This document shows positions 2,179-6,188 of a stretch of 6,305 nt of DNA, piece after piece; position 1 is the stretch's first letter, and the number at the start of each line of letters is the position of its first letter. This stretch comes from Kiritimatiellia bacterium. GTDB taxonomy: Bacteria; Verrucomicrobiota; Kiritimatiellia; JAAZAB01. Where the stretch lies: contig JAGYMT010000115.1 in NCBI GenBank assembly GCA_018400335.1, positions 1-6,305 on the forward strand, in the 5' to 3' direction. Under the pieces are notes generated by a model that was given only the letters and a program-made list of their open reading frames with translations, ran no database searches and had not been told where the DNA came from. The position numbers and the translations under genes were made by a program.

Positions 2179-2221
2179 CGTTCAACTATTAACAATAAGT
2201 AAGGGTTGATTATGATAGCGT

Positions 2222-3748
2222 ATGGCGACAAATATGGGGAACAATTCGCGATCAACGCTATCTTTTTGCCGGTTCCAGATTACGGACTTTCACGATTTTC
2301 TTCGCGAAGTGGAAGAAGTTGGCCCGGTTTGCGCGCCGATCGTCTCCATCTGACAAGGGGTTTGGATGCCCGGGCAAAGAAAAAAACAGCTTCCGAATAG
2401 AGGATCGGAAATTTGTGCAGATCAAACCCCTCACATTGCCCAGGCATCGGCGTCCAAGGAGCGGAATCTGCTTGCAGAGGAACTGAACCTTGCCCGTTGG
2501 GCGTCCTCGAATGCCGGCATACCGGTATACATGTTTTGATGATCCGAGGCTTTCTTGTTCGTTGCGTTGACATCGAAGAGCGCGCATGTTCTTGCGTGGT
2601 CAATGAGTTTGGCAGCTGGTTTCTTAAATGACCGTGGATTGAAGATGCAGATGGACAACGATGGAAAATGTAGACCTGGTCAGTCATGCGACGCGCGAGT
2701 TGATATTCGACAAGCAGATACAGCTTGCATTTGACGAGGAATCTCGACGACTTCCGAAGTTGACGATTGACAACATCGGTGAAAGCGAACGGCGCTCTTG
2801 GCCTACGGTTGCGAATGCTAACCGGACTGCTGGGTCGCGCGAATCGTTTCGGACAGAAGGTGTTTTGGATTGAAGGATTTCAAAAGCCAAAAGAGTCTAA
2901 GGTTCCTCGATGGCTGGAAGAGATGTGAAACTGACCTTTCAGATATGCTGGTTGCAGGCAAAGGCGATCGAGAGGAAAGCTGAAGAAACATTATGGTCGG
3001 GTGCTGAAACGTGGGCGGAAAGCTGTCGAATCATTGGGAGGGGAGTTGCGCCGTGTTGAGGAAGGATTATCGTTGGAGGGCATTTTCCCCGAGCCAACGA
3101 ATTCTATTACAACGGGTATTGTCGCGGATCAAAGCTGACATAAGCGACTCGCGTCAGGTTCTGAGATATGCGCATGATCCCGGGTATTTCTGGAAAAGAC
3201 GCTACCATCAACGGAGAAAATCCTTAGTCTGTCGGATGGCTCGGCTGCGCTAAAAATAAAGAAGGGTCTCGTGCACCCCTGTCGTGGCTATAAGCCACAA
3301 TTGGTGCTGGCGCAAAAGCGGTTTGTCGTCAGCCTCATTGTTCCGGAAGGCAATGCGGCTGATTCGATTAATTGGTTCCTGCGATTTCCGACTCAGTGAC
3401 TTGGAGCAGTGCTGGCGGACATGGTCAGTTCCGATGATGATTATGCTTCGTCGGATGGACGCGACAAACTTCTGCTTGGCATGGGCATCGCCGATGTATA
3501 TCAGCGGAGCCAAAGGCAATGACCACCCCGGATGACTGGGACAACGAGGCATATCATAGAGCGCCGTTATCGTTCCCGCGGTGGAAGTCGCTGATGTTTA
3601 ATCAGGACGGTTTTGAATTTGGCAGGAACTTGCTCGTCGAGGCATTGGCGCGGTGCGTGACGGAGTATTGGAAAAGGTTTTGGCCTACAATTGCTGTCGC
3701 GCCACGTTATTGAAAGACGACGAAGAAAAACAGGCGCAAGCCGCCTGA
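2222..3748 (+). pseudogene. DDE transposase pseudogene with many frameshifts
   Basis: No frame is open across the region, but consecutive pieces in different frames make one coherent transposase of about 500 residues. In order: DFHDFLREVEEVGPVCAPIV (frame starting 2222, stop at 2351), IEDRKFVQIK and GRPRMPAYRY (around 2390-2525, with an in-frame TGA at 2484), ALTSKSAHVLAWSMSL (about 2566-2613), MENVDLVSHATRELIFDKQI (from 2661), MLTGLLGRANRFGQKVFW (about 2815-2868), LKKHYGRVLKRGRKAVESLG (from 2980), RILLQRVLSRIKADISDSRQ (about 3100-3160), KILSLSDGSAAL then SLIVPEGNAADS (3181-3396, TGA at 3397), VSSDDDYASSDGRDKLL (3424-3474), DDWDNEAYHRA (from about 3531), SLMF..DGFEFGR, and AVRDGVLEKVLAYNCCRATL, ending at TGA 3746-3748. 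Candidate catalytic acids are Asp 3235-3237, Asp in the 3433-3441 run, and Glu at 3584-3586. The last is followed by an apparent one-base insertion at 3587. The gene is certainly non-functional. Confidence 0.88.
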
Positions 3749-3951
3749 ATACGAGCCGGCACAGGTCAAAGAGGAAGGATAAAGAGATAGGTGTGTCGAA
3801 AAATGACGAAAAACAGGAAAGCAGTGGCAACGATGCTGGTGACCGATCAAATGCCGTGTTTGCGACCGTGAACCTTGAACGATGAACCTTAAACCCTCCG
3901 TTCGAAAGGCTTTCGGGCGGATCGATAGAGAAAGAAGAAGTGTTTTCTCTT
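3749..3951. other. Right non-coding part of the IS relic
   Basis: There is no gene between the transposase stop and the right terminal repeat. A phrase built on repeated (T)GAACCTT (about 3870-3892) and the interrupted dyad CCGTTCGAAAGGCTTTCGGGCGG (about 3898-3920) are visible. Whether all of this was part of the original IS or includes later insertions cannot be seen. Confidence 0.4.
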
Positions 3952-3983
3952 CCTTTTTGTGAAGTTTTGTGACTTTTCGTGGC
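3952..3983 (-). repeat. Right terminal inverted repeat of the IS
   Basis: TTTTGTGACTTTTCGTGGC (3965-3983) is the exact reverse complement of 2100-2118, and TTTTTGTGA (3954-3962) continues the match after two differing bases. It marks the right end of the decayed IS, 118 bp before the kinase start codon. Confidence 0.7.
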
Positions 3984-4100: not shown

Positions 4101-5135
4101 ATGCCCACTGAACGCATCCGCCGCAAGCGCATCAACGCAATAGCTCCGACACGAATCTGCGACATTGGAGGATGGACGGACACCTGGTTCGCGCATTCCG
4201 GCACGGTGCTCAATTTTGCCGTGTACCCTTATGTTGAAGTGCAGGTGCACATCACCGAGAATGTCGAATCAGAGGAGCGCGTAACCATTTCGGCTGAAAA
4301 CTTCGGCCACACTTACTCGATTAATCCCGATGTCATCACCTTCACGAAGCATCCGCTGATAGAGGCGGCAATAGATGTTATGAAGTTGCCGGGGGACGTC
4401 TCTTTCAGGATCAATATATTCTCCGACGCGCCGCCCGGCGCCTCCATGGGCACCTCGGCCGCAGTGTCGGTGGCGTTGATAGGAGCGCTCGATGCATTGA
4501 GCCGCGGCAGGCTCACTCCGCACGAGGTCGCGGCCCTGGCGCATTCCATTGAGACCGACAAGCTCGGACTGCAGTGCGGGGTCCAGGACCAGTTTGCCAG
4601 CGCGTACGGCGGCATCAGCTACATACAGATGCACGAGTTTCCGCATTCCAGCGTTTCGCCCGTACGTGTGCCGGACAGCGTCTGGTGGGAGTTGGAGCAC
4701 AGGTTTGCCGTGATCTACATCGGCACTCCGCACAGCTCAAGCGAGACTCATCAGAAGGTAATCGCCGGGCTCGGGGAGGACGCGAGCGGCGACCCGCGCA
4801 TCCGGAGATTGCGCGAGCTTGCCGGAGAGGCCAAGAACGCAGTGTATGCGGGAGATTTTACGGAGCTTGGCAGAATCATGCACGAGAACACGGAGGTGCA
4901 GCGAGCGCTTCATAAGGACCTTATCTGCAAGCAGTTTCAGGAAGTGATCGCGATAGCCTCCGATTTTCACGCCCTGGGCTGCAAGGTGAACGGGGCAGGG
5001 GGGGACGGCGGGTCGCTCACGATCCTCACCAACGGCGATATGAGCGTCAAGCGGCGCATGCTCAAGGCGATCCGCGAGCGATCGTATTTCAGTCTGCCCA
5101 TCTACCTCTCCAGGCAGGGCCTTCGCGTGTGGTGA
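4101..5135 (+). CDS. GHMP-family sugar kinase
   Basis: A 344-residue cytoplasmic kinase of the GHMP superfamily (galacto-, homoserine, mevalonate, phosphomevalonate kinases), of normal length for the heptose-7-phosphate / fucose / arabinose kinase-like branch. Motif 1 is IAPTRICDIGGWTDTWF (14-30), with GGWTD at 23-27, followed by GTVLNFAV. Motif 2, the ATP phosphate loop, is DAPPGASMGTSAA (109-121), slightly off the usual PPGxGLGSSAA. GVQDQFASAYGG (160-171) carries the likely catalytic Asp163. Motif 3 is KVNGAGGDGGSLTIL (295-309). The family transfers phosphate from ATP to a sugar hydroxyl; the substrate is not determinable here. The start at 4101 is chosen for GGAGG 5 nt upstream (4091-4095) and because the longer frame from 3969 begins inside the IS terminal repeat. 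It is divergent from the oxidoreductase, with the IS relic between them. No promoter I trust was found. Confidence 0.93.
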   Translation: MPTERIRRKRINAIAPTRICDIGGWTDTWFAHSGTVLNFAVYPYVEVQVHITENVESEERVTISAENFGHTYSINPDVITFTKHPLIEAAIDVMKLPGDVSFRINIFSDAPPGASMGTSAAVSVALIGALDALSRGRLTPHEVAALAHSIETDKLGLQCGVQDQFASAYGGISYIQMHEFPHSSVSPVRVPDSVWWELEHRFAVIYIGTPHSSSETHQKVIAGLGEDASGDPRIRRLRELAGEAKNAVYAGDFTELGRIMHENTEVQRALHKDLICKQFQEVIAIASDFHALGCKVNGAGGDGGSLTILTNGDMSVKRRMLKAIRERSYFSLPIYLSRQGLRVW

Positions 5136-5150
5136 GTTGTTCCTGCAGTA

Positions 5151-5210
5151 GCATCCCATGGAAGATTGGAATGATGGAATGATGGAATGATGGAATACTG
5201 GAAGGATGGA
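5151..5210 (+). repeat. 8-bp repeat array B
   Basis: It opens with GCATCCCATGGAAGATTGG (5151-5169), identical to the start of array A on the opposite strand, including the preceding CAGYAGCATCC context with one change. Then come 8-bp units: GGAAGATT, three GGAATGAT (5168-5191), GGAATACT, GGAAGGAT, and a partial unit. It starts 16 bp after the kinase stop. Positions 5176-5197 are the exact reverse complement of 5327-5348 in array C, so B and C can form a 22-bp stem. Confidence 0.85.
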
Positions 5211-5248
5211 GCAACGAGACAGGGAAAGAAGTCCCAGTTTCAAAATTC

Positions 5249-5315
5249 GGCATGGTTCATAAGACACCGTAACAGAGTAACACTTTAGGCATGTTACCCC
5301 GATTTGAACCATGCC
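5249..5315. repeat. 67-bp module with 11-bp terminal inverted repeats
   Basis: GGCATGGTTCA (5249-5259) and TGAACCATGCC (5305-5315) are perfect inverted repeats bounding a 45-bp core. The core carries GTAAC at 5269-5273 and 5277-5281 and the inverse GTTAC at 5293-5297. It lies exactly between arrays B and C. It has the form of a miniature mobile element or a solo IS end, but encodes nothing, and no target duplication is recognisable. Confidence 0.6.
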
Positions 5316-5319
5316 CACC

Positions 5320-5383
5320 ATTCCACTATTCCATCATTCCATCATTCCACTATTCCATTCTTCCACTATTCCACCATTCCAGT
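5320..5383 (-). repeat. 8-bp repeat array C, inverted relative to B
   Basis: Eight consecutive 8-bp units of the ATTCCAYY type (ATTCCACT, two ATTCCATC, ATTCCACT, ATTCCATT, CTTCCACT, ATTCCACC, ATTCCAGT), the reverse complement of the GGAATGRT units of arrays A and B. Unlike A and B, it lacks the GCATCCCATGG module. It makes a stop-free frame reading FHHSIIPLFHS that is not a real protein. Confidence 0.85.
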
Positions 5384-5409
5384 TCCTCTGGAAGACAGAG
5401 TTTTCCCTG

Positions 5410-5438
5410 TTGATATTCTCCGCCCGCGGTTGTATTAT
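5410..5438 (+). promoter_or_regulatory. Sigma70-type promoter of the NYN-domain gene
   Basis: TTGATA (5410-5415), a 17-bp spacer, and TATTAT (5433-5438): each hexamer is one base from consensus and spacing is ideal. Predicted start of transcription is near 5445, giving an unusually long leader of about 138 nt before the ATG at 5583. Confidence 0.65.
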
Positions 5439-5447
5439 TGATCCCGT

Positions 5448-5460
5448 CCTGTTAAACAGG
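5448..5460. promoter_or_regulatory. Operator-like palindrome at the transcription start
   Basis: CCTGTT-A-AACAGG is a perfect 13-bp palindrome beginning about 3 bp after the predicted start of transcription. A dyad in this position is where a repressor would block initiation. The regulator is unknown; no regulator gene is in the window. Confidence 0.5.
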
Positions 5461-5549
5461 TTTGTCTTCTTCGCCGGGCCCGCGTGGATTATAGTTGCAT
5501 GTGATCGAACGGCGCCCGATAGAATCGCGGACTCGAATCCGCAAAAACT

Positions 5550-5565
5550 GCGCCCCGCGGGGCGC
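5550..5565 (+). promoter_or_regulatory. 16-bp GC palindrome next to the ribosome binding site
   Basis: GCGCCCCGCGGGGCGC is a perfect palindrome that forms a very stable 6-bp stem with a CGCG loop in RNA. It ends 3 nt before the likely ribosome binding site GGGAG (5569-5573) and 17 nt before the ATG. A weaker hairpin, GCGGA (5527-5531, first bases approximate) with TCCGC, precedes it. It may modulate translation, but could equally be a neutral repeat. Confidence 0.5.
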
Positions 5566-5582
5566 GATGGGAGTATCAGGTT

Positions 5583-6188
5583 ATGAGTTTTTTGAAGCGT
5601 TTATTCTCAGGCCCCCGGGATAGCGGCAGTTTCCCCGCGCGTCCGAAGTCCGACCAGGTGGTCGTTGTTGATGCCACGGGCATGATCAATCAGCGGCACA
5701 AGGCCGGCACCGGGCAGGGCAGTCCGCGCGATCATGCGGCCATCTTGAAGGATGTGCTGAGCTTTGCGTCCAGGGAGGGAGTCAGCTTTCAGCTCATCTT
5801 CACCGGCCGCCCGCTCAGGGAGGCGGCTGAGGGAAGCGAAAGAAAGGGCGTGACCGCGCATTACGTCGAGACGAGGGATGCGTGCCGGGACATGATCCTC
5901 AGCCTCGTCAAGGAATCATTACGAAAATACAACGTGGTGGTATGCGCCTCTGATCCGCAAGTGGAGGCGCAGGCTGCCGCGCTGGGCGCTGATTGCATGC
6001 GGCTCTCGACATTCAGGAAGACTCTTGATGGAAGCGACGAGAGACCGCGCCAGCCGCCCAGGAATTCCAACAGCAGGCGAGCGGCTGCTGAACAACGTCC
6101 CTCGGAGCCCGAAAAATCGGAGCCCCGATCCGAGCCCCGGCAAGACACGCGCGATGCCGCCGTTCTGACTCTCATTGACCCGGTTTAG
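5583..6188 (+). CDS. Putative NYN/PIN-like nuclease domain protein
   Basis: A 201-residue protein with a likely NYN (YacP-like, PIN-superfamily) domain at about 24-148. Beta strand VVVVDATGMIN (26-36) carries the first acidic residue, Asp30. A helix (about 48-65) and strand FQLIFTG (69-75) follow. ETRDACRDMILSLV (96-109) supplies Asp99 and Asp103 in the usual acidic helix. VVVCASDPQVEAQAAALGA (118-136) provides Asp124 and the closing strand-helix unit. These acids would form the metal site of a ribonuclease. The C-terminal 50 residues are Pro/Glu/Arg-rich and look disordered, ending in a short hydrophobic LTLIDPV. Members of the superfamily process or degrade RNA; the target here is unknown. 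The start is supported by GGGAG 9 nt upstream. It has its own promoter, and no partner gene such as an antitoxin lies adjacent. Assignment rests on pattern recognition and is moderate; a generic Rossmann-like domain is the alternative. Confidence 0.7.
   Translation: MSFLKRLFSGPRDSGSFPARPKSDQVVVVDATGMINQRHKAGTGQGSPRDHAAILKDVLSFASREGVSFQLIFTGRPLREAAEGSERKGVTAHYVETRDACRDMILSLVKESLRKYNVVVCASDPQVEAQAAALGADCMRLSTFRKTLDGSDERPRQPPRNSNSRRAAAEQRPSEPEKSEPRSEPRQDTRDAAVLTLIDPV

Follow-up and report, generated by a model that had tools for sequence, protein, structure and literature searches.

What kind of element is formed by two facing arrays of 8-bp repeats that follow directly on a kinase gene in a Kiritimatiellia bacterium? 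The window analyzed here, the whole stretch of 6,305 nt, carries a GHMP kinase gene (4101–5135, plus strand) upstream of these arrays and a gene for a YacP-like NYN protein (5583–6188, plus strand) downstream; a Gfo/Idh/MocA oxidoreductase is encoded on the minus strand of the same window. Among the best 120 relatives of the kinase listed, seven bear a group name, at 63–67% identity: Lentisphaerae, Kiritimatiellia, two Verrucomicrobia, Chlamydiae, Chitinivibrionales and Acidobacteriota; a host from the PVC group is accordingly likely. One relative of the kinase, P0002, is 94% identical. The first-pass annotation had described 5151–5383 as a nested inverted structure, with repeat arrays on either side of a 67-bp module. 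The analysis shows that this structure is recurrent, and more general than that description implied.

The array structure behind the kinase, which we call copy B, spans 5146–5391 and starts 10 nt past the kinase stop. Its left arm (5159–5211, plus strand) consists of seven TGGAA-type units, six of them exact, and its right arm (5321–5381, minus strand) of eight exact TGGAA units with a 24-bp higher-order period. Between the arms lie a spacer (5212–5248) that might fold into a separate small hairpin and the 67-bp module (5249–5315) with its inner GTAAC repeats. The right border (5382–5391) is part of a small hairpin, TTCC-TCT-GGAA, as paired by eye. The inverted matches noted earlier are exact: 5249–5259 and 5305–5315 form a perfect 11-bp inverted repeat that bounds the 67 bp, and 5176–5197 is the reverse complement of 5327–5348 within a full match of 23 bp (5175–5197 with 5327–5349). 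The module had also been placed exactly between the arrays. It is in fact off center: on the left, 37 nt separate the end of the plus array (5211) from the module, and on the right only 5 nt separate the module from the first full TTCCA unit (from 5321).

The inverted structure of 5151–5383 is confirmed and greatly exceeds what chance would produce. When the window was shuffled 30 times with dinucleotides preserved, the longest perfect inverted repeat measured 9–13 bp (spacers up to 300 nt). As RNA, the segment folds with a predicted energy of −101 kcal/mol versus −52.1 (sd 4.6) kcal/mol in shuffles (z −10.6); as DNA, it reaches z −8.7, and 0 of 200 shuffles fold as well in either form. The repeated unit is TGGAA followed by three bases. 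Among 98 such tails from nine elements, some of them at array ends, 90 have G or T at position 6 and 96 have A or G at position 7, and position 8 is unconstrained; because of this composition we write the unit as TGGAAKRN. Since two opposed arrays of one unit make long complementarity nearly automatic, the 22-bp match by itself adds little.

A related copy occurs in the same window. Copy A (1673–1780) is inverted relative to copy B and contains no module. It consists of a plus array (1683–1727; six units, five exact) that corresponds to the right arm of copy B, a 3-nt gap, and a minus array (1731–1767; five units, four exact) that matches the left arm. What had been annotated as array A is therefore part of a second, module-less version of the inverted structure. 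Positions 5146–5193 align with the reverse complement of 1733–1780 (48 nt, 90%), including the border AGCATCCCATGG, and 5332–5391 align with the reverse complement of 1673–1732 (60 nt, 85%), including the small border hairpin. Compared by eye, this hairpin reads TCCC-ATA-GGGA in copy A (region of 1672–1681) and TTCC-AGA-GGAA in its equivalent in copy B. Both matches extend beyond the arrays, so that both arms and both borders are common to the two copies. Since the module is found only in copy B, it is the two opposed TGGAAKRN arrays that recur, and the module is optional; the nested figure is an array hairpin whose loop may or may not carry an insert. Unlike copy B, which follows a stop codon, copy A precedes the start of a gene.

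In an alignment of the whole region, copy B is longer by 138 nt (5194–5331). Anchored by eye on GGAATACTGG and CACCATTCC, the extra segment becomes 5202–5315, and its placement is ambiguous because the arrays are periodic. The non-array DNA that only copy B contains amounts to about 104 nt, namely, the spacer and the module. An equal hairpin without the module, together with the 11-bp inverted ends of the latter, could indicate that the module is a MITE-like mobile remnant, inserted into the loop of an array hairpin that was already in place. We consider this very unlikely. The spacer 5212–5248 is also part of the difference between the copies, and no target-site duplication was seen by eye at the module or at the element borders in the window. 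Searches with the module returned nothing from phages or viral contigs and a single partial match from plasmids (E = 4, 32% of the query). A scan of genome contigs for the shared border pattern likewise produced a single match, which fell within a Clostridia MAG coding sequence and was dismissed as chance.

The window contains other inverted sequences. A second pair of inverted short repeats, of the CACAAAAAGT type (2100–2129 and 3954–3983; 30 nt, 93% complementary), encloses a 1.8-kb stretch of decayed coding sequence. Pieces of this decayed stretch (2206–3885) found no Pfam family above the cut-off, the best being DUF3863 with E = 0.12. A long imperfect palindrome with the halves GGACGGACAGCCGTGTCCGTCC and GGCGGGACAAGGCTGCCCCGCC lies at 136–201.

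The layout of an array with an inverted partner recurs elsewhere, on viral contigs and in translated arrays. Scans of viral contigs for the unit pattern found 29, 66 and 3 stretches. A fixed array finder, run on 86 sequences (85 loci and the window), reported 132 arrays. Convergent pairs account for 13 rows, which correspond to ten elements on six viral contigs plus the window, and divergent pairs for 12 rows, from one nine-locus viral family and the single loci L014, L054 and L056. Arm order on the raw DNA rows is thus not one-sided. The divergent arms contain three units (one has four), and the convergent arms three to eight. The pattern scan found three convergent and two divergent stretches, the latter two being homologous and of the TTCCAATATTCC kind. 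The nine-locus family (L041, L048, L055, L061, L063, L064, L067, L071 and L083) has a conserved pair of TTCCAATATTCC-type arrays, 110–120 nt apart, which adjoins AATAAATATATTTATT and has mixed units in one arm; L102 and L103 resemble this family.

All six contigs with convergent pairs encode phage structural proteins (portal, terminase, head or scaffold); the assignment of L047 relies on homology to L017. Unit and layout connect these phage elements with those of the window, a connection that may reflect descent and does not prove it. Four stretches of one 36-kb phage contig (L009, L011, L018 and L073) differ in that their 11 TGGAA arrays lie on one strand and have no partner; in the two stretches with listed ORFs, the long ORFs are mostly on the strand of the arrays. 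Many arrays of this contig lie between same-direction genes, mixed with GAGGGGC and GAGAGTT runs. Concerning the earlier proposal that arrays should be associated with the module or with an inverted partner, we find no tie to the 67-bp module and, these 11 arrays excepted, a clear tie to the partner.

Arm order becomes one-sided in translated arrays from metagenomes, which we searched in 5.8 billion proteins. Among 74 ORFs that read a TTCCA-type array, a TGGAA-type array lies upstream in 24 and downstream in none (23 and none with a narrower expression), and among 51 ORFs that read a TGGAA-type array, from a second search, the opposite array lies downstream in six and upstream in none; these counts include related ORFs, such as P0137 and P0159, which end alike, and so overstate the number of independent cases. 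Simulated ORF calling on 6000 elements of each kind, for the first search only, gave 114 ORFs from convergent and 58 from divergent elements. This two-to-one bias does not explain 24 to 0. Named organisms stand behind three of the 74 ORFs: Desulfobacteraceae (E = 9e-6), Verrucomicrobia (E = 0.02) and a deltaproteobacterium (E = 0.2). The predicted proteins P0121–P0245 are translated 8-bp arrays, and the name given to P0200, "pantothenate kinase-related protein Tda10", is probably wrong. The Singulisphaera plasmid pSINAC03 carries a period-8 ATTC array with a 24-bp period in a part with no listed genes (L104, 1498–1626) and a smaller GAATTCCT array at 2102–2123. A Providencia match of an array peptide was rejected as a plain AAAATTCC repeat, and plasmid matches from Klebsiella, E. 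coli, Burkholderia and Streptomyces were left out of the counts.

We tentatively propose, with a confidence somewhat short of even, that 5146–5391 is a dispersed, non-autonomous array-hairpin element that is either put to use as an RNA hairpin between cistrons or tolerated. Such an element would consist of two opposed arrays of 8-bp TGGAAKRN units, the GGAA-rich arm first, with a variable loop between them that may carry extra sequence such as the 67-bp module. Each arm seems to gain and lose length on its own through slippage, in steps of 8 or 24 bp, and copies would spread as units by some route and settle mainly in intergenic gaps. Several observations speak against the proposal: the position of copy A, the divergent pairs, the arrays that have no partner, and, as described below, arms that do not covary and three elements that fold weakly.

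The behavior of the arms could also be read in neutral terms, as a micro-satellite. The TGGAA repeats of human satellite DNA can fold back, and here a TGGAA-rich seed might expand by slippage and acquire its partner when the purine-rich strand folds back or switches template; this strand could prime itself through G-A pairing. This history, which we regard as unlikely, would set the arm order without function or mobility. It would fit arms that grow independently: unit-by-unit agreement between arms is 0.496, compared with 0.505 in shuffled order (1285 of 2000 shuffles are as good), so that covariation of the arms was rejected, and no match in composition between the arms within elements was found. 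It would also fit a 24-bp period confined to one arm (in copy B and, by eye, in L023) and the existence of arrays with no partner. The flanks point the other way. Copies A and B have common borders outside the arrays, whereas array ends vary among the phage elements; L006 and L058, which are two places on one contig, have a leader in common and align over 212 nt (74.5%), beginning at the upstream stop and reaching into the first array. These common borders and the common leader argue that whole units were duplicated. A similar loop (50 bp, 82%) that L017 and L047 carry at different places also counts against this history. The recurrence with conserved borders that had been named as a sign of a discrete element is therefore borne out by copies A and B and by the leader, but not for the module as a fixed center.

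Returning to the element proposed above, its mobility as a unit is suggested by where related phages carry it. The phages of L047 and L017 are related (81% over 2543 bp and 78% over 1134 bp). The spacer between terminase and portal holds an array element in L047; in L017 it consists of 210 nt with no arrays. Conversely, three of the nine listed spacers of L017 contain array elements, and none of the three is the terminase–portal spacer. Another case lies inside a gene: in L023 (2093–3784) a 563-aa terminase large subunit contains an in-frame array pair that encodes a WKTGRMED-type repeat. The three relatives found do not have about 34 residues at the site of the array pair; since they are only 51–56% identical, a variable loop may be the explanation instead of an insertion. 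No transposase was seen with the elements.

The position of the elements relative to stop codons was compared for ten phage elements (L025, three in L017, two in L026, L047, L006, L058 and L023), for which the ORFs are mechanical calls. By script, the array starts 6–11 nt past the upstream stop in four of the ten, namely, in L025, the second element of L017 and both of L026. If looser units are counted by eye, the first and third elements of L017 and that of L047 start within about 9 nt of a stop as well. In L006 and L058 the leader intervenes between stop and array, and L023 is the case inside a gene.

Folding allows a hypothesis as to what the transcribed element may do. RNA folding gave z ≤ −3.7 in eight of 11 array elements tested; the weak folders are the first and third elements of L017 (z −1.8 and −1.1) and L047 (z −1.7). 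The cruciform or RNA hairpin originally suggested for copy B agrees with the folding results, while the unit-by-unit covariation of the arms that might have accompanied it is absent. A hairpin of this kind could act between cistrons or in a 3′-UTR, by protecting the mRNA end or by partial attenuation, or it could be merely tolerated. An intrinsic terminator would consist of a GC-rich stem with a T tract directly behind it; by eye, no T tract follows the long hairpin of copy B, and none was seen behind the long hairpins of the other elements. Rfam 15 has no match in the window at gathering scores. The region 4900–5700 contains four terminator-like sites (0.6 expected) and one sigma-70-like site (5410–5438; 0.8 expected), and one of the four terminator-like sites, a weak one (5386–5404), lies directly behind copy B, separate from the long hairpin. 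Because of these sites, copy B may simply sit in the gap between two transcription units.

The best hint of an RNA role comes from the head-protein gene of L025, behind which the array hairpin would do the job of an intercistronic hairpin. This gene was found at 12 loci, L025 and 11 relatives, and the folding of the spacers behind it took in L025 and ten relatives (L098, alike to L096, was left out). All 11 spacers fold better than shuffles, nine with z ≤ −2.2 and two with −1.94 and −1.83, and their sequences are unrelated. A start codon and a ribosome-binding-like stretch follow in nine of these spacers, as seen by eye, and were not identified for L100 and L101. The folding may instead be a common property of spacers of this kind.

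A wider reading, which we put forward as rather improbable, would make the TGGAAKRN array-hairpins a widespread undescribed class of non-autonomous elements in several bacterial phyla and their phages. Their preferred arm polarity would result from the way they are made, for example by self-priming fold-back of the purine strand, and they would move as units into spacers or genes and replace older intercistronic hairpins. If this were so, many of the small hypothetical proteins that contain HHSIIPSF- or EYWNDGMME-type repeats would be translated hairpin elements, and phages would carry and swap them as hairpins ready for use between cistrons. The preference for one arm polarity would then offer a testable handle on the birth of long inverted repeats, and the terminase case would suggest that array DNA can become protein.

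Searches by repeat letters and by concept, in literature mostly outside the subscription journals, found no published description of TGGAAKRN arrays. Several known systems share parts of the design. REP/REPIN, ERIC and MITE families are short, non-coding, hairpin-forming, multi-copy sequences that lie mostly between genes. The present elements resemble them in all of these respects, but their arms are built of short tandem units in varying number, they seem to have no fixed terminal repeats, and no target-site duplication or linked transposase was seen here. The STRR of cyanobacteria are heptanucleotide tandem repeats. They too are intergenic and of short period, whereas here the period is 8 and an inverted partner is present. 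Human satellite DNA has the TGGAA core and a purine strand capable of fold-back in common with our arrays; the satellite is eukaryotic and of period 5, and we treat this likeness as a lead only.

The nearest published design is that of the paired octanucleotide sites of Geobacter metallireducens (PMC2700814). The class 1 sites, with the consensus GTTGCTYN, comprise four tandem octanucleotides each and are paired on opposite strands at variable distance; TWGTTGAY pairs occur as well, and some class 1 sites have insertion sequences at a fixed distance (PMC2700814). The authors read these sites as predicted sites of a global regulator and proposed binding of IHF or HU (PMC2700814). By analogy, each TGGAAKRN array might be a tandem protein site, with opposed sites forming a loop. 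The layout, the fixed core with three variable bases and the absent covariation of the arms, as expected for protein sites, would all suit such a function. We nevertheless judge it distinctly unlikely, as arrays range from 3 to 12 units, most of the phage copies are found between same-direction genes, and one lies inside a gene. Compared with the Geobacter sites, our arrays are likewise dispersed tandem repeats of a partly degenerate 8-nt unit that are paired on opposite strands. They differ in the unit itself, TGGAAKRN instead of GTTGCTYN or TWGTTGAY, which places them outside that family; and whereas the Geobacter sites were described from one genome, the arrays studied here are of variable length, are found in phages as well and have common borders outside the arrays.
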